The notes under the pieces were generated by a model. It did not search any database. It saw nothing but the letters and a program-made list of their open reading frames with translations, and was not told where the DNA came from. From positions 1,224,501 to 1,288,500 of the forward strand of contig CP019797.1 in NCBI GenBank assembly GCA_002951995.1: a DNA stretch of 64,000 nt. Reading direction: 5' to 3'. Both the position numbers and the translations under genes were made by a program. Positions 1 through 10,417 of this stretch are shown one piece after another. The stretch comes from Stenotrophomonas acidaminiphila. Lineage in GTDB: Bacteria; Pseudomonadota; Gammaproteobacteria; Xanthomonadales; Xanthomonadaceae. Every line of letters starts with the position of its first letter. Position 1 is the stretch's first letter.

Positions 1-199
1 TGCCGGCGCCGGTGAACAGCACGCGCTGCGCCGGGTCGGACAGGCGCTGGCCGAGGAACGCCTGCAGGCGTTCGCGGTCGCGCCCCAGGTCTGCGGCCAG
101 AGCGTCCCACAACGCCGGCTGCTGGGCGATTTCGGCGGCGGTATCGGCTCCGCCCAGGCGCTGCCAGGCAGATAGATCGGTAAGCAGGGTGGCGTCCAT
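1..199 (-). CDS. agaS: AgaS-like SIS-domain sugar-phosphate isomerase/deaminase, N-terminal part (cut by window edge)
   Basis: Only the first 66 codons are present; the gene runs off the left edge. The start is the ATG whose complement lies at 197-199. The visible protein has a spacing like the start of E. coli AgaS: a helix with EIAQQPALW, then after about 30 residues VLFTGAG, the beta-strand and glycine loop that opens the SIS sugar-phosphate fold. AgaS enzymes deaminate and isomerise galactosamine-6-phosphate in the cytoplasm during N-acetylgalactosamine catabolism. It is divergent from a GH31 enzyme, with a shared control region between them, and a GH109 alpha-N-acetylgalactosaminidase lies nearby. 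That context favours a GalNAc role over a glucosamine (NagB-II) role, but the specificity-determining part is outside the window. Confidence 0.7.
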   Translation of the reverse strand, partial: MDATLLTDLSAWQRLGGADTAAEIAQQPALWDALAADLGRDRERLQAFLGQRLSDPAQRVLFTGAG

Positions 200-237
200 T
201 CTTGGTTCCTGTTGGGCCAGCGCACGATCTGCTTTTT

Positions 238-451
238 CTTTCGAAATGTCAAACATCGAAAGAAAATGGAAAGATAACTTTCGGCGCACGAGCCTGTGCG
301 GGTCATGACGCCGAACGAAAGTTCTGTGCGCCCTATCTTTCGTTGCCGCGATACGGCAGATGAATGCCGATATAGAAAGTGGTGCTTTGCACAAACTTTC
401 GATTTATCAAAAAATCCTTATCTTTTGCTTTCATTTTGTTGACATCTTTCG
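238..451. promoter_or_regulatory. Divergent control region with seven CTTTCG/CGAAAG operator-like words
   Basis: The hexamer CTTTCG or its complement occurs seven times in 214 bp: 238-243, 257-262, 278-283, 316-321, 337-342, 396-401 and 446-451. Near matches lie at 268 (GGAAAG), 374 (AGAAAG) and 428 (CTTTCA). Several are spaced 19-21 bp apart, about two helical turns. The word TTTCATTTTGTT at 429-440 fits the TTTCRTTTYRTTT core reported for the DeoR-family repressor AgaR of E. coli. The stretch is much more AT-rich than the rest of the window. I infer a DeoR/AgaR-type repressor controlling both agaS and the GH31 gene. No regulator gene is in the window. Confidence 0.6.
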
Positions 452-468
452 AATTGCTGCCCTAGAGT
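439..468 (+). promoter_or_regulatory. Sigma-70 type promoter for the GH31 gene
   Basis: A perfect -35 TTGACA (439-444) is followed after 18 bp by TAGAGT (463-468), a 4/6 match to the -10 consensus. A CTTTCG word at 446-451 sits inside the spacer and an AgaR-like word overlaps the -35, a typical place for a repressor. The predicted transcript starts near 475, about 40 nt before the chosen GTG start. This is also why the upstream in-frame ATG at 360 was rejected as the start. Confidence 0.6.
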
Positions 469-512
469 CGGCGCAACGCCATCGGATGCCCGATCGGGCC
501 TGGGGAGCAAGG

Positions 513-3500
513 GTGCACAACCGCGTACGACGTCTGCCACTGCCGGTGGCGCTGCTTTCCGTCCTGCTGCTGCCGGCGCTGCCGGCGCAGGCCGAGCCGG
601 TGGGCAACCTGCGCGCGGTCAGCGCCGGCGATGGCCGCGACGGCGTGCGTGGCTGGGACCTGCTCACCGACACCGGCACGCGCGTGCGCATCGAACTGCC
701 GGCCGCCGACATCGTCCGCGTGCAGGCCGGGCGCAAGGGCAGGCTGAGTGGTGCCGGCGACAAGGCCGCGCCCATCGTGCTGCCGCAGCCCACGGCCGCC
801 GTGCAGGCGCAACTGGAACAGGACGCGCAGGAAATCCGCGTGCGCACCGATGCCCTGGTGCTGCACGTGCAGCGGCAGCCGCTGCGGCTGCGCCTGGAGC
901 GGCTGGACGCTGGCCGGCCCACCGCCCTGTGGCAGGAACTGCAGCCGCTGGACCTGGATGCCGCGCAGAGCGTGCAGGTGCTGTCCTCGCAGGCCGACGA
1001 GGCGTTCTTCGGCGGCGGCCAGCAGAACGGCCGCTTCCAGTTCAAGGGCCGCGAGCTGGAGATTTCCTATTCCGGCGGCTGGGAGGAGGGCGACCGCCCG
1101 AGCCCGGCGCCGATGCTGCTCAGCTCGCGCGGCTGGGGCATGCTGCGCAACACCTGGAGCGATGGCAGCTACGACCTGCGCCAGCCCGACCAGGCCACGC
1201 TGCTGCACCGCGAGGACCGCTTCGACGCCTATTACTTCGTCGGCGCCGACCTGCCGCGGCTGATCGAGCGCTACACGCAGCTGACCGGCCGCCCGAACAT
1301 GGTCGCGCGCTGGGCGCTGTCCTACGGCGATGCCGACTGCTACAACGACGGCGACAACATCAAGAAGCCCGGCAGCGTGCCCGAAGGCTGGAGCGATGGC
1401 CCCACCGGGACCACGCCGGACGTGGTCGACAGCGTCGCCAGGCAGTACCGCGAGCACGACATGCCCGGCGGCTGGATCCTGCCCAACGACGGTTACGGCT
1501 GCGGCTACAAACAACTGCCCGAGACCGTGCAGGGGCTGGCGAAGTACGGCTTCAGGACCGGCCTGTGGACCGAGAACGGGGTGGACAAGATCGCCTGGGA
1601 AGTGGGCAAGGCCGGCAGCCGCGTGCAGAAGCTGGACGTGGCCTGGACCGGCCAGGGCTACCAGTTCGCGATGGACGCCAACCGCCAGGCGTTCAACGGC
1701 ATCCTCGACAATTCCGACTCGCGCCCGTTCCTGTGGACGGTGATGGGCTGGGCCGGGATCCAGCGCTACGCCGTGGCCTGGACCGGCGACCAGAGCAGCA
1801 GCTGGGACTACATCCGCTGGCATGTGCCGACCCTGGTCGGCTCGGGCCTGTCCGGCATGGCCTACGCCAGCGGCGACGTCGACGCGATCTTCGGCGGCAG
1901 CGCCGAGACCTTCACCCGCGACCTGCAGTGGAAGGCGTTCACCCCGGTGCTGATGGGCATGTCGGGCTGGTCGTCCAACGCACGCAAGCACCCGTGGTGG
2001 TTCGACGAACCCTATCGCTCGATCAACCGCGACTACCTCAAGCTGAAGATGCGCCTGACCCCGTACATGTACGGGCTGGTGCACGAGGCCGCGCAGACCG
2101 GCGCGCCGCCGGTGCGCGGGCTGATGTGGGACTACCCACGCGATCCGCACGCGCGCGACGAAACCTACAAGTACCAGTTCCTGCTCGGCCGCGACCTGCT
2201 GGTGGCGCCGGTGTACCGCAGCCAGGCCGCCAGCCGCGGCTGGCGCCGCGACATCCACCTGCCGGCCGGCGGCTGGATCGACTACTGGGACGGCCGCCGC
2301 GTGCAGGCCGGCGCCGACGGCCGCCAGCTCGACCGCCAGGTGGACCTGGCGACGCTGCCGGTGTTCGTGCGCGCCGGCGCGATCCTGCCGATGTACCCGG
2401 CCATGCTGTTCGACGGCGAGAAGCCGCTGGATGAGGTGACCTTCGACCTGTATCCGCAGGGCGATTCGCAGTACACGCTGTACGAGGACGACGGCAACAC
2501 GCGCCGCTACCAGCAGGGCGAATCGAGCACCCAGCAGATCCGCGTGCAGGCGCCGGCGCAGGGCAGTGGCCCGGTGCAGGTGCGCATCGAGGCGGTGCAG
2601 GGCGAATACCGCGGCCAGCTGGCGCAGCGCCGCTACGGCCTGCGCGTGCTCAACCGGCAGGCACCGGCCGCGGTGCGGCTGGACGGCCGCGCGCTGCCCG
2701 CGCTCGCCGATGCCGCCGCTTTCGACGCGGCCGGCGAAGGCTGGTACTTCGACGCCGGCGAGCGCCGCGGCACCCTGCACGTGCGCACCGCGGCGGTGGA
2801 CATCCGCCAGCCGCTGCAACTGCAGCTGGACTTCCCGGTGGCCGCCGCGGCAGCCGACGACGCGTTCCCGGCCGCCCCGCAACAGGGTCGGGCGCTGCCG
2901 CCGGACAGCCTGCTGGTGGTCAACCGCCCGGCCGAGGAGAACGGCTACCCGCTGGAGAACGCCTTCGACGACGATCCGGCCACCTGGTTCCGCACCGTGC
3001 GCAACCAGGCCATCCGCACCGGCGCCCACGAATGGGTGATCGGCTTCGGCGAGCGCAGGATGATCGATGGCATCGAACTGGCACCGCGCAACGACCAGCA
3101 CTGGAAGCACGGCCAGGTACGCGACTACGAGATCTACCTGGCCGACAGCAACGGCGAATGGGGCGAGCCGGTCGCACGCGGCCGCCTGCCGCTGAAGGAA
3201 GGCCTGCAGCGCGTCGATTTCCCGGCCCATGCCGGCCGCCTGCTGCGCTTCCGCGTGCTCGGCGTGCAGAACCCGGACGGCGACGGTGCCGCGGCCAGCG
3301 ACCCGATGGTCAGCGCCGCGCAGGGCGCCACGGCACGCGCCGTCGATGCGCTGCGGCCGCGCGACGTCGGCCCGATCGCACTGTCCACTTTCCGCATCCT
3401 CGAGCAACGCCGACCGGAGCGGCCGGCACGGCAGCAATACCTCTCCCGGCTGCCGCTGCCGGCCGCGCTGGCCGGCCAGGTGCGGGCCGACCGCGCGTTC

Positions 3501-3875
3501 CGCGGCGATGCCGGCATGCGCATGAACGGCCTGCAGTTCCGCAGCGGGCTGGGCGTCGGTGCCGACAGCCGCATCGACCTGGCACTCACCGGCCACTGGC
3601 AGCTGCTGCGCGCCGACCTCGGCATCGACGATGCCTGCCGCGCCGCCGGCGGCCTGCAGTTCCAGGTCTGGGGCGATGGCCGCCTGCTCTACGACAGTGG
3701 CCTGGTGAAGGCGCCCGGCGTGGTCAAGCCGGAGCTGGACATCCGCGGCCTGTCCGCGCTGAGCCTGCGCACGCTGGGCGCGCAGGGCAGCCAACCCGCC
3801 CAGGTCTGTGGCAACTGGGCCAATGCCGTGCTGATCGGCGAGGAGGGCGACTCCGCCGAACTCGTCGCCCCATGA
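513..3875 (+). CDS. Secreted multidomain glycoside hydrolase family 31 enzyme, probable alpha-N-acetylgalactosaminidase type
   Basis: This is a retaining alpha-glycosidase of about 1120 residues. GTG at 513 follows GGGGAG at 502-507 and opens a signal peptide ending near LPAQA. A mutarotase-like N-domain (about 30-230) precedes the catalytic barrel (about 255-620). Asp375 in KLDVAWTG is the predicted nucleophile and Asp426 in AWTGDQ the predicted acid/base. Their 51-residue spacing and the VAWTG context resemble the GH31 alpha-GalNAc enzymes (Nag31A group) rather than alpha-glucosidases. C-terminal beta domains are followed by an F5/8-type-C (CBM32-like) module (about 796-926) and an NPCBM module (about 957-1114). 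It lies between agaS and a TonB receptor and likely cuts alpha-GalNAc glycans outside the cytoplasm. Substrate is inferred from motifs and context; alpha-xylosidase or alpha-galactosidase activity remains possible. Confidence 0.8.
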   Translation: MHNRVRRLPLPVALLSVLLLPALPAQAEPVGNLRAVSAGDGRDGVRGWDLLTDTGTRVRIELPAADIVRVQAGRKGRLSGAGDKAAPIVLPQPTAAVQAQLEQDAQEIRVRTDALVLHVQRQPLRLRLERLDAGRPTALWQELQPLDLDAAQSVQVLSSQADEAFFGGGQQNGRFQFKGRELEISYSGGWEEGDRPSPAPMLLSSRGWGMLRNTWSDGSYDLRQPDQATLLHREDRFDAYYFVGADLPRLIERYTQLTGRPNMVARWALSYGDADCYNDGDNIKKPGSVPEGWSDGPTGTTPDVVDSVARQYREHDMPGGWILPNDGYGCGYKQLPETVQGLAKYGFRTGLWTENGVDKIAWEVGKAGSRVQKLDVAWTGQGYQFAMDANRQAFNGILDNSDSRPFLWTVMGWAGIQRYAVAWTGDQSSSWDYIRWHVPTLVGSGLSGMAYASGDVDAIFGGSAETFTRDLQWKAFTPVLMGMSGWSSNARKHPWWFDEPYRSINRDYLKLKMRLTPYMYGLVHEAAQTGAPPVRGLMWDYPRDPHARDETYKYQFLLGRDLLVAPVYRSQAASRGWRRDIHLPAGGWIDYWDGRRVQAGADGRQLDRQVDLATLPVFVRAGAILPMYPAMLFDGEKPLDEVTFDLYPQGDSQYTLYEDDGNTRRYQQGESSTQQIRVQAPAQGSGPVQVRIEAVQGEYRGQLAQRRYGLRVLNRQAPAAVRLDGRALPALADAAAFDAAGEGWYFDAGERRGTLHVRTAAVDIRQPLQLQLDFPVAAAAADDAFPAAPQQGRALPPDSLLVVNRPAEENGYPLENAFDDDPATWFRTVRNQAIRTGAHEWVIGFGERRMIDGIELAPRNDQHWKHGQVRDYEIYLADSNGEWGEPVARGRLPLKEGLQRVDFPAHAGRLLRFRVLGVQNPDGDGAAASDPMVSAAQGATARAVDALRPRDVGPIALSTFRILEQRRPERPARQQYLSRLPLPAALAGQVRADRAFRGDAGMRMNGLQFRSGLGVGADSRIDLALTGHWQLLRADLGIDDACRAAGGLQFQVWGDGRLLYDSGLVKAPGVVKPELDIRGLSALSLRTLGAQGSQPAQVCGNWANAVLIGEEGDSAELVAP

Positions 3876-3911
3876 CCCCCGCGTAACACCGCTGCTCCCC
3901 CAACACACCGC

Positions 3912-3932
3912 CCACGGCCGTCGCGGCCGTGG
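3912..3932 (+). terminator. GC hairpin between the GH31 gene and the TonB receptor
   Basis: A perfect 9-bp stem (CCACGGCCG / CGGCCGTGG) with a TCG loop lies 37 bp after the GH31 stop. There is no T-run, so it may be an attenuator or mRNA-stabilising hairpin rather than a full terminator. Confidence 0.4.
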
Positions 3933-3992
3933 AACGGGATCGCCATGCCCGCCATCCGCTGTTCCGTGCGTCACCGCCAGGAGAGAACCCCG

Positions 3993-6970
3993 ATGTTGCC
4001 AGCCCGCCGCAATCCCACCCGTTGCCTGTCCACGCCGCTGTCGCTGGCCGTGGCCAGCGCCCTGATCGCCATCGCCGCGCCGGCCCTCGCGCAGGATGCC
4101 GGCAAGGACAAGGACAAGGAAAAAACCACCGAACTGGCCCGCGTCGAAGTCACCGGTTCCAACATCCGCCGCACCGACGTGGAAACCGCCTCGCCGGTGC
4201 AGGTGATCAGCAAGCAGGACATCCAGAACATGGGCGCCCGCACCCTGCTGCAGGTGCTGGACAACCTGCCTGCCGCGCGCCCGGCCCAGGTCGATTCCAA
4301 GTCGCTGTTCACCGGTTCCGACGGCGCCTCGCAGGCCAACCTGCGCGGCCTCGGCCCGCAGGGCACGCTGGTGCTGCTCAATGGCCGCCGGCTGTCGTAC
4401 TACGGCGCGCCGTCGGGCTTCCAGACCCAGTTCGTCAACATCGACGCCATCCCCGCCGCCGCGATCGAACGCATGGAAGTGCTGACCGACGGCGCCTCGG
4501 CGGTGTACGGCACCGACGCGGTGGCCGGCGTCATCAACGTCATCACCAAGCGCAGCTACCAGGGCCTGGAGGTCAGCGGCACCTGGGACACCGCGCCGCG
4601 CTTCGACTCCTACGGCGAGAAGCAGGCCAGCATCACCGGCGGCTTCGGCGACCTGTCCCGCGACCGATACAACGTCTACGCCAGCGTCAACCTGTACGAG
4701 CGCGACGGCATCCCCGACAGCGAGTGGTACGACAAGAACCCGGCCCAGTTCTACGTCAACAATCCGGACTACATCAAGAACCTGCGGCTGGGCACGGGCA
4801 GTGCGCCGGGGGTGTTCAACCCGGGGTACTACTTCGCCTTCGACCCGGTCACCAAGGCGCGCGTGGACGAGGCCGCGCCGGGCTGCAAGAACGTGCTGCA
4901 GGTGAGCAGCGGCACCCGCTGCATCTGGCAGACCTGGATGAACCGCCAGATCAACGGCGGCGCCGACTCCCGCCGGGTCACCGCCTACGTCAACGGCCAC
5001 TTCGTGGTGAACGATGCCACCGAGGCGTTCGCCGAGGTCACCTATACCGACATCGACCTGCGCGCCAATGGCGGCACCCGCGCGCCTACGGCACCACCAC
5101 CGGCAACCCGCAGAGCTGGTTCTCGCGCAATACCGGCAACACGGTCAACCAGTTCCTGTATCCGTTCCTGGGCCCGAACAACGAGTACAACCACGCCAGC
5201 CCCGAGCTGAAGGCGCTGATGGGCGGCGTGGTCGGCCTGGGCTACCTGCTGCAGGACGTGGGCGGCAACCACTTCGGCCAGCGCAATACCGACAAGAGCT
5301 ACCGCGCGGTGGCCGGCCTGCGCGGCAGCATCGGCGACTGGAACTGGGAAACCGCCTTCGCCACCGCCGGCTCGCATTCGGTCACCTACCAGACCACCAA
5401 CGTCAACCTGCGCGGCTTCGAGAAGGCCTTCGGCCCGTACACGGTCGACCCGGGCACCGGCCGGGTGATCATTTCCGACCACCCGGCCTACAAGTTCGGC
5501 GAGCTGAGCGAAGCCAATGCCGCGCTGATCCGCGAGGCGTTCCCGACCTTCGACATCCAGTCGTGGACGCGGCTGCATACCCTGGACGGCAAGATCGAAG
5601 GCCCGCTGTTCAACCTGCCGGCCGGCGAAGTGCGCGCCGCGTTCGGCTTCAACGCCACCCGCGAGACCTTCTATACCCCCGGCAACCCGGACGCCGCCAA
5701 CGGCCTGATCACCCAGCAGGGCGGCTCATGGTTCGACGGCAAGCGCAACACCTACGCGCTGTTCTCCGAAGCGGTGGCGCCGATCACCGACAAGCTGGAG
5801 CTGGACGCCGCGCTGCGCGTGGACAAGTACCCGGGCTTCAGCGCCAACCTGGCGCCGAAGATCGGCCTGAAGTACCAGGCGCTGCCGCAGCTGATGCTGC
5901 GCGGTACCTATTCCGAAGGCTTCCGCGCGCCCAGCCTGGCCGAGTCCGGCAGCGGCGGCGTGTACGCGCAGATCGGCGGCTACCGCGACGAGACCCGCTG
6001 CGCCGAGACCAATGCCATCGCCGGCCTGCTGCGCCAGTCCGCGCGCGGCGTCGACAAGGACCTGGGCAACAGCCTGTGGAACAGCGACTGCAGCCGCAAC
6101 GTGGCGCGCATGACCCAGCCCAACCCGGAGCTGAAGCCGGAGAAGGCCAAGATCGCCACCGTCGGCTTCGTGCTCGAGCCGACCGACTGGCTGTCGCTGT
6201 CGGCCGACTACTGGTTCGTGTACCGCCGCAACGAGATCGTCGCGCCGGACTACAGCAAGCCGGAAGAAATCAGCGCGATGACCCGCTTCCCGATCACCGA
6301 GACCGACCTGGCCAACCTGGCCGCGCTGGCCCGCATGTGCGCCGACCCGGCCAGCGGCGTGGCCTGTCCGGCGACCCTGCCGGGCTACAGCACCGGCAAC
6401 GTGGCCAGCGTGATCGGCCAGTACAAGAACCGCGGCCGCACCCTGGTCGACGGCCTGGACGTGGACGCCCGCGGCCGCTTCGACCTGGGCGAGTGGGGCC
6501 GGCTGAACGTCGGCGTGGCCGCGACCATCGCCAACCGCAACATGTACAACGCCGATGATGCCGACGGCTGGTACTACGGCAACTTCGTCGGTTACTACAA
6601 CAACCCGCGGCTGCGCGCCACGTTCAACACCAACTGGACCTACGGCAACTGGGACACCGGCTTCTACATCAACTATGTCGGCGGCACCAAGTGGGCGTAT
6701 GACCGCATCGACGCGGAAGACAACAACGCCGAAACCTGCACCGGCAGCTACGTCGACGTGTCGCCCAGCCAGTGCGAGGGCGCGCCGTCGTGGTGGACGG
6801 CCAACCTGAGCGTGAACTGGCGGCCGGTCGAGAAGCTGAGCGTGGGGGTGACGGTGAAGAATCTGTTCAACCGCCTGCCGTTCTACGACCCGAACGACTG
6901 GATGAACTTCCCGGGCTACACCAACAACTTCGGCCGCATCTACAGCGTGACCGCCACCTACCGGTTCTGA
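3993..6970 (+). CDS. TonB-dependent outer-membrane receptor (frameshifted as read near 5085-5095)
   Basis: Active uptake pore for a carbohydrate, powered by TonB. Of two in-frame ATGs (3945 and 3993) I chose 3993 because AGGAGAG sits at 3979-3985. The signal peptide ends near PALAQ. The plug domain begins about residue 45 (VEVTGSNIRR) and contains typical LRGLG, LLNGRR and GVINVITK words; the barrel ends in the terminal phenylalanine YRF. The first frame is good to about 5085 (TYTDIDLRANGG) and homology resumes in another frame from about 5090 (YGTTTGNPQSWF). One missing base or two extra bases in the CGCGC tract explains this. It resembles the large Xanthomonadaceae TonB receptors found with glycan-degrading genes, so it probably imports the product of the flanking GH31 and GH109 enzymes. 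Confidence 0.85.
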
Positions 6971-6982
6971 TGCCGCACCGTT

Positions 6983-7021
6983 GCGTGCTCCCCTGCGTGC
7001 ATGGCATGAAGGGGAGCACGC
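6983..7021 (+). terminator. Stem-loop after the TonB receptor gene
   Basis: A perfect 12-bp inverted repeat, GCGTGCTCCCCT (6983-6994) and AGGGGAGCACGC (7010-7021), with a 15-nt loop starts 12 bp after the receptor stop. No T-run follows, so it may only weaken transcription into the GH109 gene. Confidence 0.5.
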
Positions 7022-7091
7022 CTGCTTCGCCCGCCCGGGGCGTGCCATGGCGGCCGCCACGGGCGTGATTCCAAGCCAAAGAGGACATGCA

Positions 7092-8447
7092 ATGAAACGC
7101 AGGGAATTCATCCTGGCCGGCGCCGCGCTGGCCGCCACCAGCCTGTTGCCGGAGACCCCGGCCTGGGCGCGCGGACGCAGGCTGCGGCTGGGCATGATCG
7201 GCACCGGCATGCGCGGCCAGGTGCTGCTCAAGGAACTGCTGCGCCGTGACGACGTGGACATGGTGGCGCTGTGCGACATCGAGCCGATCATGCTCGGCCG
7301 CGCCACCGCCATGGCAACCCGGGCCGGCAAGCCGGTGCCGCGGACCTACGGCGCCGATGGCGATGCCAACGCCTGGAAACGCCTGCTGGAGCAGCGTGGC
7401 CTGGACGGGGTGATCATCGCCACGCCATGGGAACTGCACGCGCCGATGGCGATCGCGGCGATGCAGGCCAGGGTCGCGGTTGGCTGCGAAGTGGTGGCCG
7501 GCATCACCCTGCAGGACCACTGGGACGTGCTCAACACCCAGCTGCAGACCGGCACCCCGTACATGCTGCTGGAGAACGTGTGCTACCGCCGCGACGTGAT
7601 GGCGGCGCTGCAGATGGTACGCGAAGGCCTGTTCGGCGAGCTGGTGCACCTGCAGGGCGGTTACCAGCATGACCTGCGCGGGGTGAAGTTCAACGACGGC
7701 AATCCCGACCATCCCTACGGCAGCGGGGTCGAGTTCGGGCCCAAGGGCTGGTCCGAGGCGCGCTGGCGCACCGAACACTCGGTCACCCGCAACGGCGAGC
7801 TGTACCCGAGCCATGGCATCGGCCCCTGCGCGATGTACACCGGCATCAACCGCGGCAACCGCTTCACCCACATCAATGCCTTCGCCAGCAAGGCGCGCGG
7901 GCTGCATGAATACACCGTGGCCAAGAGTGGCGGCACCACGCATCCGAGCACCCGGGTGCAGTTCAAGCTCGGCGACATCGTCACCACCACCCTGGCCTGC
8001 GCCAACGGCGAGACCATCCTGTTGCAGCACGACACCTCGCTGCCGCGCCCGTACTCGCTGGGCTTCCGCGTGCAGGGCACCAAGGGCCTGTGGATGGACC
8101 TCAACCACGGCATCCATATCGAGGGCCGCAGCCCGCCGCACGAGTGGGAGGACTTCAAGGCCTACCAGGACCAGTACGAGCACCCGCTGTGGAAGCAGCA
8201 TGCCGATACCGCCGCCGGCGCCGGCCACGGCGGCATGGACTGGTTCGTGATCCACGCCTTCGTCGAGGCGCTCAAGGCGCAGGCGCCGATGCCGATCGAC
8301 ATCTTCGACGCGGTGACCTGGAGCGCGATCACGCCGCTGTCCGAGCAGTCCATCGGCAACGGCTTCCAGACCCTGGAGTTCCCGGATTTCACCGGTGGCC
8401 TGTGGCGCCAGCGCAAGCCGATCTTCGCGTTCGACGGGCGCTATTGA
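7092..8447 (+). CDS. GH109 family protein (NAD-dependent alpha-N-acetylgalactosaminidase)
   Basis: A 451-residue protein with a Gfo/Idh/MocA fold. ATG at 7092 has GAGG 7 nt upstream. The N-terminus KRREFILAG with a hydrophobic stretch to PAWA is a twin-arginine export signal, suiting an enzyme that must fold around NAD before export. The Rossmann motif GMIGTGMRG follows at about 35. The words ATPWELHAPMA, LENVCYRRDVM, GELVHLQGGYQHDLR, LYPSHGIGP and INRGNRF match the GH109 family founded on the Elizabethkingia enzyme, which removes alpha-GalNAc by a redox-assisted elimination mechanism. Members act on blood-group A and mucin-type glycans. It is the second candidate alpha-GalNAc-releasing enzyme in this locus, unrelated in fold to the GH31 enzyme upstream. 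Confidence 0.85.
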   Translation: MKRREFILAGAALAATSLLPETPAWARGRRLRLGMIGTGMRGQVLLKELLRRDDVDMVALCDIEPIMLGRATAMATRAGKPVPRTYGADGDANAWKRLLEQRGLDGVIIATPWELHAPMAIAAMQARVAVGCEVVAGITLQDHWDVLNTQLQTGTPYMLLENVCYRRDVMAALQMVREGLFGELVHLQGGYQHDLRGVKFNDGNPDHPYGSGVEFGPKGWSEARWRTEHSVTRNGELYPSHGIGPCAMYTGINRGNRFTHINAFASKARGLHEYTVAKSGGTTHPSTRVQFKLGDIVTTTLACANGETILLQHDTSLPRPYSLGFRVQGTKGLWMDLNHGIHIEGRSPPHEWEDFKAYQDQYEHPLWKQHADTAAGAGHGGMDWFVIHAFVEALKAQAPMPIDIFDAVTWSAITPLSEQSIGNGFQTLEFPDFTGGLWRQRKPIFAFDGRY

Positions 8448-8579: not shown

Positions 8580-10052
8580 TCAGCGGGTGGCGGTTTCCGC
8601 ATCGGCGTCGGCCACCGGCGAGGGCGGGCACGCCGGCACTTCGGCCGGCGTCGCCAGTTCCCCGGCATGCGCCGGCGGCGCCAGCATCCTGGCCCTGCGC
8701 CAGCCGCCCCAGCGGTAGTAGGCCAGCGACAGCAGCATCGAGACCAGCGAACTGACCGGGAAGCTCCACCAGATCGCATCGGCGCCCCAGTACGGCTGCA
8801 GCAGTTCGGCAAACGGCACGCGCACGCCCCACAGCGCGGCGGCCAGGATCAGCAGCGGGGCCATCACCGCACCGGTGGAGCGGACCACGCCGGAAATCAC
8901 GAAGCTCACGCCGAAGAACAGGAACGACCACACCGCGATGTGGTTCAGGTGCCGCGCGACCGCCAGCGCCTGGCTGCCGTCGGGCAGGAACAGGGCCAGC
9001 GAGTGCCGGTCCAGCAGGACCAGCGGCAGGATCAGCACCCCGGTGAGCACGAAGTTGTACAGCACGCCCTTGCGCGCGGTGCCGCGGACCCGGTTCCAGT
9101 GGCCGGCGCCCACGTTCTGCGCGGCCATGGACGAGCATGCCGCGCCGATCGCCATCGCCGGCATCTGCACGTAGGTCCACAACTGCAGCGACGCGCCATA
9201 GGCGGCGGCGGTATCGGTGCCGTAATCGTTGACCATGGTCATCAGCATGATCATCGACAGCGAGATCAGCACCATCTGCAGGCCCATCGGCACGCCCTTG
9301 ACCACCAGTGCGCGCAGGATCGCCAGGTCGATGCGCAGCAGCCCCAGGTCCTTGCGCCCCAGCCACAGCACATGGCCGCGCTGGCGCATGTAGGCCAGCA
9401 GGCCGAGCAGCGACAGCGACTGCGCCAGCAGCGTGGCCCACGCCGCACCGGCGATGCCCAGCCGCGGGAACGGGCCGATGCCGAAGATCAGCAGCGGGTT
9501 GAGCACGATGTCCAGCGCCACCGACAGCAGCAGGAAGCGGAACGGCGTGCGCGAGTCGCCGGCACCGCGCAGCGCCGCGCTGAGGAAGGCGAAGGCGTAC
9601 AGCGTCGGCGTGGCCAGGAAGATGATCCGCAGGTAGGCCTCGGCCAGCGGCAGCGACGCGGCCGGGGTACCCATCGCGCGCAGCAGCGGATGCGCCATGA
9701 ACCAGCCGGCGATGGCGATCAGCACTGAAATGCCGATGAAGAAGGTGGCGCTGGTGCCCATCACCCGCCGTGCCTGGACCACGTCGCGCGCGCCCATCGC
9801 CTGGCCGATGAGGATGGTGGCGGCCATGCCGATGCCGAACACCGAGCCGATCAGGAAGAACATGATGTTGTTGGCGTTGGCCGTGGCGGTCAGCGCCGCT
9901 TCGCCGAGGAACCGGCCGACCCAGATCGCGTTGACCGAGCCGTTGAGCGACTGGGCGATGTTGCCGGCCAGGATCGGCAGGGCGAACAGCAGCAGGTTGC
10001 GCCCGATGGGGCCTTCGGTCAGCGAGCGGGCGGCAGGGGCGGGGGCGGTCAT
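8580..10052 (-). CDS. MATE family multidrug efflux transporter
   Basis: About 490 residues with twelve predicted membrane helices and the repeated MATE layout (LPILAGNIAQSLNGSVNAIWVG near the start, then a second half opening VKGVPMGLQ). MATE proteins export cationic drugs or metabolites in exchange for Na+ or H+ across the inner membrane. I placed the start at MTAPAPAAR (10052), just before the conserved N-terminal helix. An alternative ATG at 10088 adds 12 residues, and neither has a clear ribosome-binding site. The C-terminal tail is rich in Ala, Pro and acidic residues and is not conserved in the family. It stands alone and its substrate is unknown. Confidence 0.85.
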   Translation of the reverse strand: MTAPAPAARSLTEGPIGRNLLLFALPILAGNIAQSLNGSVNAIWVGRFLGEAALTATANANNIMFFLIGSVFGIGMAATILIGQAMGARDVVQARRVMGTSATFFIGISVLIAIAGWFMAHPLLRAMGTPAASLPLAEAYLRIIFLATPTLYAFAFLSAALRGAGDSRTPFRFLLLSVALDIVLNPLLIFGIGPFPRLGIAGAAWATLLAQSLSLLGLLAYMRQRGHVLWLGRKDLGLLRIDLAILRALVVKGVPMGLQMVLISLSMIMLMTMVNDYGTDTAAAYGASLQLWTYVQMPAMAIGAACSSMAAQNVGAGHWNRVRGTARKGVLYNFVLTGVLILPLVLLDRHSLALFLPDGSQALAVARHLNHIAVWSFLFFGVSFVISGVVRSTGAVMAPLLILAAALWGVRVPFAELLQPYWGADAIWWSFPVSSLVSMLLSLAYYRWGGWRRARMLAPPAHAGELATPAEVPACPPSPVADADAETATR

Positions 10053-10156
10053 GGGCGGCGGTCGGCGACTGAATGCGGACACTAGCATTGCCGGTGTGAC
10101 GGTGGCCGCAGGTCTCGCTACGATGGCGTCCGGGTATGTCCAGTGGAGGAACGGGA

Positions 10157-10417
10157 GTGCGCAGACAGCTGTGCGGCGCAATGGCGGTGCTGGCCCTGTC
10201 GGGCTGCGCCAACAGCGAGCGCCTGATGGACGCCGGCGTGCGTCCGTCCGACCATGCCGACTGCCTGGTCGGCGCCGGGCCCGCCGAGCCGGTGCCCAGG
10301 GGGGCCGCGCCATCGATGCGCAGCCGGCGCTGCAACCCCGACGAGGGCCTGAACTGGACCATCGGTTCGTCGCGCAGCGAGACGATGGACGTGGACTTCA
10401 AGAAAAAGCATGACTGA
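10157..10417 (+). CDS. Small putative lipoprotein
   Basis: An 86-residue protein with a charged N-terminus (VRRQL), a short hydrophobic stretch and the lipobox LSGC, so it is probably anchored in the outer membrane or facing the periplasm. GTG at 10157 has GGAGG at 10145-10149; an ATG at 10136 has no such site. A -10-like TACGAT lies at 10119-10124. After the Cys the protein has three further cysteines and ends in the basic FKKKHD. I do not recognise a domain. Its stop lies inside the start of hslR (8-bp overlap), so the two are translationally coupled, but no functional link is known. Confidence 0.65.
   Translation: MRRQLCGAMAVLALSGCANSERLMDAGVRPSDHADCLVGAGPAEPVPRGAAPSMRSRRCNPDEGLNWTIGSSRSETMDVDFKKKHD

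Follow-up and report, generated by a model that had tools for sequence, protein, structure and literature searches.

How does a pathway for N-acetylgalactosamine (GalNAc) end in a bacterium whose genome yields neither known kind of tagatose-bisphosphate aldolase? The question is raised by a locus at the left end of the DNA stretch analyzed here, 64,000 nucleotides (the window) that form bases 1224501-1288500 of the one-contig, 3.66-Mb genome of a Stenotrophomonas acidaminiphila strain. Known routes from tagatose 6-phosphate (tagatose-6-P) combine a kinase with a tagatose-bisphosphate aldolase, either of class II (PF01116) or of the LacD type (PF01791). Judging from its sequence relationships, the locus very probably serves the use of alpha-linked GalNAc, and AgaZ, one of the proteins it encodes, is probably a tagatose-6-P 4-epimerase.

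A preliminary description of the window had singled out four genes, encoding an AgaS-like enzyme, a GH31 enzyme, a TonB-dependent receptor, and a GH109 enzyme, as a compact alpha-GalNAc locus, and all four are present in that order and place. On the plus strand, the GH31, receptor, and GH109 genes form a unit that ends at 8447. The minus strand carries, reading leftward, agaS, agaK (ROK kinase), agaZ (GatZ/KbaZ-like), and agaR (DeoR-type), followed by rplS-like and trmD-like genes; the start codon of agaS lies at 199-197, and the first ~66 codons of a protein of 384 residues fall inside the window. The names rplS, trmD, nagP, nagI, and nagB were assigned by eye, and a model test was applied for NagA only. 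The best 80 of 215 loci found by GH31 (numbered with the prefix L) served as relatives, a GH31-based choice that informs on gene order rather than prevalence. Nearest among these 80 are loci of S. acidaminiphila and S. nitritireducens, with identities of 92 and 91% for GH31 (best segment) and 97 and 96% for AgaR. Open reading frames were chosen by a third-position-GC heuristic that overlooked some genes, as illustrated by AgaZ, which was recovered in 56 loci by reading frame and in 76 by tblastn.

The assignment of the sugar-pathway genes rests on family models and structural matches. AgaR scores above the cut-off of its model (NF040755, 330 against 260 bits), as does AgaZ (TIGR02810, 607 against 569 bits; PF08013, 1e-185), and AgaK belongs to the ROK family (Pfam, 7.1e-61). 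The top three Protein Data Bank (PDB) matches of AgaS are all tagatose-6-phosphate ketose/aldose isomerases (best 3.8e-78), and glucosamine-type proteins follow at 1.8e-18 or weaker. These matches agree with the earlier view of AgaS as the intracellular step, and the presence of agaK, agaZ, and agaR alongside it argues against a glucosamine-type gene of a chitin operon.

The two hydrolases are nearest to enzymes that act on alpha-GalNAc. The GH31 protein, which starts at a GTG codon and has a signal peptide as judged by eye, contains GH31, F5/8C, and NPCBM domains (Pfam). In a single-sequence ranking against the PDB, its top three matches are EfNag31A and variants thereof (6m76, 7f7q, and 7f7r; 3.5e-110), with the next other GH31 enzyme at 1.3e-47; a 14-member profile gave 2.7e-137 for EfNag31A and 2.4e-68 for the next. 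D426 and D477 (numbered from base 360) align by hand count with D434 and D487 of the EfNag31A chain, which we take to be the GH31 catalytic pair, and both Asp motifs are kept in 80 of 80 relatives. The PDB rankings were used in place of a subfamily tree, only one GH31 gene having been found outside the locus among six genomes, and by favoring EfNag31A they speak against an alpha-xylosidase or alpha-galactosidase, the two assignments that had been named as fatal to the alpha-GalNAc proposal. The best NCBIfam model is indeed named alpha-xylosidase, but the score is 141 bits against a cut-off of 606.

The GH109 protein aligns nearly end to end with the alpha-N-acetylgalactosaminidase 2ixa (6.4e-142) and possesses an NAD-binding domain, a Glyco_hydro_109_C domain (1.7e-81), an N terminus, MKRREF, that looks twin-arginine-like by eye, and the GAGHGG loop. 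The G-H-G-G part of this loop, to which we assume a catalytic role, is found in all 65 relatives that have GH109. With EfNag31A and 2ixa as the respective nearest structures, the proposal of two families that release alpha-GalNAc is supported. The locus thus points to two environmental bacterial enzymes as candidates for the removal of alpha-GalNAc; enzymes of this class attract interest as tools to trim blood-group A and Tn glycans.

Linkage between the hydrolase genes and those of the sugar pathway is conserved in two families. Among the 80 relatives, some of whose loci end at contig ends, agaS is present in 77, agaZ in 76, agaK in 76, agaR in 77, the receptor in 70, and GH109 in 65; agaR, agaZ, agaK, and agaS occur jointly in 75. 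Because the order recurs, with agaS adjoining and divergent from GH31 in 72/80 and the complete aga set accompanied by the receptor and GH109 in 59/80, the grouping is not due to chance. The joint arrangement is found in Stenotrophomonas, Lysobacter, Pseudoxanthomonas, Luteimonas, and Vulcaniibacterium and, within the Oxalobacteraceae, for example in Janthinobacterium, Massilia, and Rugamonas. In four Duganella loci (L063, L068, L072, and L075), the aga genes are found at a distance of some kilobases, and in Thermomonas (L048 and L054) and Rudaea (L059), GH31 is without an adjoining aga set. The AgaZ family occurs in 73 of 297 genomes and 15 of 54 genera of the family. Together with the Oxalobacteraceae clusters and an already published Stenotrophomonas GalNAc locus (PMC8027193), this distribution lends no support to the idea of a specialization unusual for the family; the interest that remains lies in the epimerase ending, the re-reading of two S. 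maltophilia proteins, and the missing parts of this lineage.

The ending is suggested by the active site of AgaZ and by the missing aldolases. H91, E174, and H261 of AgaZ align with H88, E171, and H257 of PDB entry 2fiq, which we take to be E. coli GatZ, as the residue numbers agree with those published for that enzyme. In a published model of E. coli GatZ, these His, Glu, and His residues are assigned as ligands of the metal (PMC11907403). Deletion of gatZ abolished tagatose production, gatZ or kbaZ together with a phosphatase restored it, and the authors read this production as C4 epimerization of fructose 6-phosphate (fructose-6-P) (PMC11907403). Profile searches of the genome under study found no PF01116 or PF01791 aldolase, class I fructose-bisphosphate aldolase not being searched for; controls were positive in 11/14 and 13/14 cases, respectively. 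The PF01791 search covered this genome, whereas PF01116 and NagA were surveyed more widely by submitting 40 of the 80 loci, which covered 39 genomes (all but that of L058). PF01116 was found in 0 of 30 other Lysobacteraceae genomes, leaving 31 of 31 without it when this genome is counted. Because PF01116 is missing from these 31 genomes, no LacD-type aldolase is found here, and the epimerase metal residues are retained, AgaZ is probably a tagatose-6-P 4-epimerase. Since PF01116 is absent from all the Lysobacteraceae genomes searched, the idea that AgaZ works there alongside a class II aldolase was rejected. In a limited literature search, no GalNAc pathway ending in an epimerase was found.

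Several observations weigh against the reading of the locus as a GalNAc pathway that ends in an epimerase. The models matched by AgaZ are labelled aldolase subunit, AgaS reaches 399 bits with its subfamily model TIGR02815 and thus stays under the cut-off of 529, and the best named NCBIfam model for AgaK is an N-acetylglucosamine (GlcNAc) kinase (289 bits, cut-off 380), so that its sugar specificity is predicted only. Each of nine Oxalobacteraceae genomes (9/9) contains one PF01116 gene, and the argument from a missing aldolase therefore fails there. Furthermore, the aldolase searches leave room for a class I enzyme, and the genome contains one phosphofructokinase and seven PfkB-family matches. 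These last points would fit a different ending, in which tagatose-6-P is phosphorylated, by AgaZ as a kinase, by phosphofructokinase, or by a PfkB-type enzyme, and is then cleaved by a promiscuous class I fructose-bisphosphate aldolase, AgaZ not being an epimerase. AgaZ has been called a tagatose-6-P kinase (PMC4694137) and proposed as one (PMC12118421), and the last step of the Stenotrophomonas GalNAc locus has been given as an aldolase (PMC8027193). However, the searched genomes lack the aldolase for which AgaZ has been described as a helper, and AgaZ retains the modelled metal ligands of a family with reported C4 epimerization; a kinase ending is therefore considered unlikely.

An epimerase ending would fit into the following model of the pathway. 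The exported GH31 and GH109 enzymes would free GalNAc from non-reducing glycan ends, and the TonB-dependent receptor, in relatives with an intact gene, would carry either glycan or sugar through the outer membrane. AgaK would convert GalNAc to GalNAc 6-phosphate, which would be deacetylated to galactosamine 6-phosphate by AgaA in most relatives and presumably by the single NagA in this strain, where a nag-type transporter would stand in for the missing permease. AgaS would then yield tagatose-6-P, and C4 epimerization by AgaZ would lead to fructose-6-P without a tagatose-bisphosphate stage. AgaR, acting at an array of CTTTC words between agaS and GH31, would repress both divergent units until a pathway sugar is present. 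We consider it likely that the locus degrades alpha-GalNAc glycans under AgaR control, with an epimerase ending and with NagA as the deacetylase in this strain, inferring from sequence all of the enzyme activities, the repression, and the substitution by NagA and the nag transporter. On balance, and with somewhat less confidence, we favor a broader proposal: that the Lysobacteraceae GalNAc pathway lacks a tagatose-bisphosphate stage by virtue of AgaZ, that S. maltophilia NagK (Smlt4435) and NagA2 (Smlt4438) are AgaK and AgaA, and that S. acidaminiphila and S. nitritireducens go further by drawing on nag genes for deacetylation and transport. The ending of a much-cited pathway thereby becomes checkable by a single enzyme assay.

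Control by AgaR is suggested by the region between agaS and GH31, which holds 10 CTTTC/GAAAG words compared to a mean of 0.6 and a maximum of 4 in 5000 letter shuffles; the whole window has 42. CTTTC is the core of the AgaR motif, and the array is regarded as a set of putative AgaR operators. Over 74 rows, a mean of 6.9 words was counted where 0.28 would be expected. The rows cover 72 relatives, since the genome under study appears in them twice (L001 and L002); eight of the 80 relatives yielded no usable interval. At least 4 words are present in 71 of the 72, with L058 the sole measured relative below this number (3 words). Facing CTTTCG pairs occur at two sites in the genome, both in the agaS/GH31 region. 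This pattern is strict, and its reversed control gave 14 matches per strand; AgaR may therefore have further targets at which the sites stand alone or farther apart.

The locus of this strain is without parts that its relatives carry. Although the preliminary description was right that a receptor gene is present, it overlooked a break in its frame: the plug (PF07715) lies in the frame 3945-5207 and the barrel (PF00593) in a different one, 5066-6967. Four relatives' receptors align to the gene in two frames that join near 5,078, and a comparison with the S. acidaminiphila copy shows the stretch to be shorter by one base. The clustered receptor reading frames span at least 900 residues in 70 of 70 relatives. 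The frameshift, seen in one assembly only, could be either a true loss or a sequencing error. Leftward extension of the locus, which had been suggested as a way to find AgaR, a kinase, a deacetylase, and an inner-membrane transporter, yielded the first two, but the latter two are not there. In relatives, both follow agaR: the NagA-like deacetylase gene agaA in 67 of 80 loci and a major facilitator superfamily (MFS) sugar porter in 59 of 80 (>200 bits). A genome-wide search found one NagA-family gene, located away from the locus in a nagP-nagI-nagB-nagA-like cluster at 694-699 kb, and no orthologue of the permease, the best match to a relative's MFS permease having 25% identity (3.2e-4). Two NagA-family genes are present in 34 of 39 relatives' genomes and one in 5, and the loci of these five (L032, L034, L045, L053, and L084) are among those without agaA. 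Loss of agaA and the permease in this lineage, rather than their never having been present, is likely because other Stenotrophomonas with the same trmD neighbor, such as L042 and L018, keep both.

These gaps raise the alternative that the locus of this strain and its closest kin is a remnant in decay that no longer functions for lack of receptor, permease, and deacetylase. With a broken receptor and no permease orthologue, the locus may indeed not work in this strain, and the records of S. nitritireducens (L053) and S. acidaminiphila (L084), with one NagA-family gene each, also lack agaA and the permease at the locus. On the other hand, their receptors are in a single frame, all six of the remaining frames in the locus studied here are uninterrupted (third-position GC 0.84-0.93), the operator-like array is present in full, and the one-base difference in the receptor could be a sequencing error. 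L053 and L084 presumably represent strains JCM 13311 and DSM 13117 under other collection numbers. S. nitritireducens JCM 13311 is reported as positive for GalNAc use and S. acidaminiphila DSM 13117 as weak, whereas strain CPCC 101365, which groups with these two species, and S. daejeonensis are negative (phenotype only; PMC9797726). AgaA and NagA can replace each other in E. coli (PMC3668189). The negative phenotype of CPCC 101365 favors a remnant, but the whole of these observations makes one improbable, and a working locus with NagA as the deacetylase is preferred.

The natural substrate is a separate question. The preliminary description pointed to mucin-like or blood-group-A-like glycans, and the specificity class of GH31 and GH109 would by itself allow a host substrate of this type in place of a microbial or algal one. 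However, beside clinical-type S. maltophilia, the carriers include Lysobacter, Duganella, Janthinobacterium, and S. rhizophila, which come mostly from soil, plant, or water habitats. In addition, genes of the Stenotrophomonas GalNAc locus are enriched beside a diatom (PMC8027193), and a host glycan appears a doubtful candidate.

The link to S. maltophilia concerns two proteins ascribed to GlcNAc use, NagA2 (Smlt4438, 375 residues, 37% identity to NagA) and NagK (Smlt4435, 285 residues), in a 2026 report whose main text does not contain the terms GalNAc, galactosamin, or tagatose (PMC13055268). Of the two NagA-family genes in S. maltophilia D457, one lies within locus L008 adjoining agaR. AgaA has 371, 371, and 375 residues in the S. 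maltophilia-type loci L008, L010, and L025, and a relative's AgaA is 38% identical to the NagA of the genome under study. D457 AgaK has 312 residues, and a start at the Met at residue 28 would yield 285; the numbers Smlt4435-4438 fit the order agaK, agaZ, agaR, agaA. Based on lengths, identity, and gene numbers, NagA2 and NagK are very probably the AgaA and AgaK of a GalNAc cluster, which ties the S. maltophilia GlcNAc mutants to such a cluster. If the 285-residue NagK corresponds to AgaK translated from an internal Met, its annotated start would omit the N-terminal DIGGTK kinase stretch.

That AgaK, AgaA, and AgaS instead act on glucosamine-type sugars in a GlcNAc or chitin locus, as the AgaK model match might suggest, is highly improbable, given that the genome has its separate nag-like cluster (the ground on which a chitin or GlcNAc operon was rejected), AgaR exceeds its cut-off, the hydrolases match alpha-GalNAc enzymes, and AgaZ is not known to have a role in GlcNAc use. 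The effects of NagK and NagA2 on GlcNAc kinase activity and GlcNAc growth (PMC13055268) would favor a GlcNAc locus, but the interchange of AgaA and NagA in E. coli leads one to expect such cross-activity (PMC3668189).

Table 1. Features at the left end of the window
Feature	Position	Strand	Basis
agaS, predicted galactosamine-6-phosphate deaminase/isomerase	1..199, continues left to ~ -955 (L002:18045-19199)	-	TIGR02815, PDB matches
10-word CTTTC/GAAAG array, putative AgaR operators	238..450		agaS/GH31 divergent promoter; word count vs shuffles
GH31, candidate exo-alpha-N-acetylgalactosaminidase of EfNag31A type, predicted exported	513..3875	+	PDB 6m76, Pfam, Asp motifs
TonB-dependent receptor gene with a frame break near 5,078	3993..6970	+	PF07715, PF00593, relatives' alignments
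GH109, candidate NAD-dependent alpha-N-acetylgalactosaminidase, 451 residues	7092..8447	+	PDB 2ixa, Glyco_hydro_109_C, GHGG loop
MATE-type transporter gene	8580-10313	-	next after GH109

The MATE gene beside GH109 (Table 1) has a counterpart in only 6 of 80 relatives' loci and is probably unrelated to the locus. A further TonB-receptor-like protein, different in type from the first (component 12), is encoded near GH31 in 18 loci within L060-L082, mostly of Oxalobacteraceae and often between the first receptor and GH109. In 19 of 80 loci, a DUF5077-DUF3472 protein that looks secreted is encoded close to the GalNAc genes (L066:21366-22673 and 18 more, many from Oxalobacteraceae but also L032 and L034), and in the Lysobacter locus L040, which clusters with L031 and L038, a DUF3472 protein bears a ricin-type lectin domain; DUF3472 may be a module related to GalNAc glycans. 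The extra genes flanking relatives' loci were examined and gave no clear pointer to the substrate. L036, on a contig labelled Bacillus subtilis SK7B5, is a Stenotrophomonas-like version of the locus and probably reflects contamination or a mislabelled record.

The locus is of a known kind, and the copy studied here is without some of the parts that relatives carry. The closest described system is the GalNAc polysaccharide utilization locus of Stenotrophomonas sp. SKA14, which comprises an AgaP permease, a gene named as tagatose-bisphosphate aldolase, and a glycoside hydrolase that carries a binding module, is enriched in diatom co-culture, and is called homologous to an S. maltophilia K279a operon with reference to Leyn et al. 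2012 (PMC8027193). In contrast, the genome under study lacks AgaP and AgaA; the main text of that paper assigns the last step to an AgaY aldolase and makes no mention of GH31, GH109, or acetylgalactosaminidase (PMC8027193). The Shewanella Aga pathway (agaP, agaK, agaAII, agaS, and ompAga) is similar in its entry by permease and kinase rather than by a phosphotransferase system (PTS), its AgaS, and its outer-membrane receptor, whereas here GH31 and GH109 form a divergent unit and agaA and agaP are missing (PMC2996990). The E. coli aga/gam cluster shares AgaR, AgaS, a KbaZ-type protein, and AgaR binding before agaS but differs in PTS uptake and the KbaY aldolase, neither of which the present cluster has, the aldolase family being absent genome-wide (PMC3668189).

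Among single enzymes, EfNag31A is the best match for the catalytic part of the GH31 protein, to which the comparison applies, with both catalytic Asp motifs retained, and 2ixa resembles the GH109 protein over nearly its full length and in the GAGHGG loop, the difference being one of sequence distance. E. coli GatZ and KbaZ are accompanied by the class II aldolases GatY and KbaY, whereas the genome under study has none of PF01116; AgaZ belongs to the same sequence family as the GatZ/KbaZ C4-epimerases (PDB 2fiq and 3txv) and has all three of the modelled metal ligands (PMC11907403). The epimerase activity itself is thus already in print, KbaZ being a protein of the E. coli GalNAc cluster, and what would be new is its role as the exit of the Lysobacteraceae pathway.

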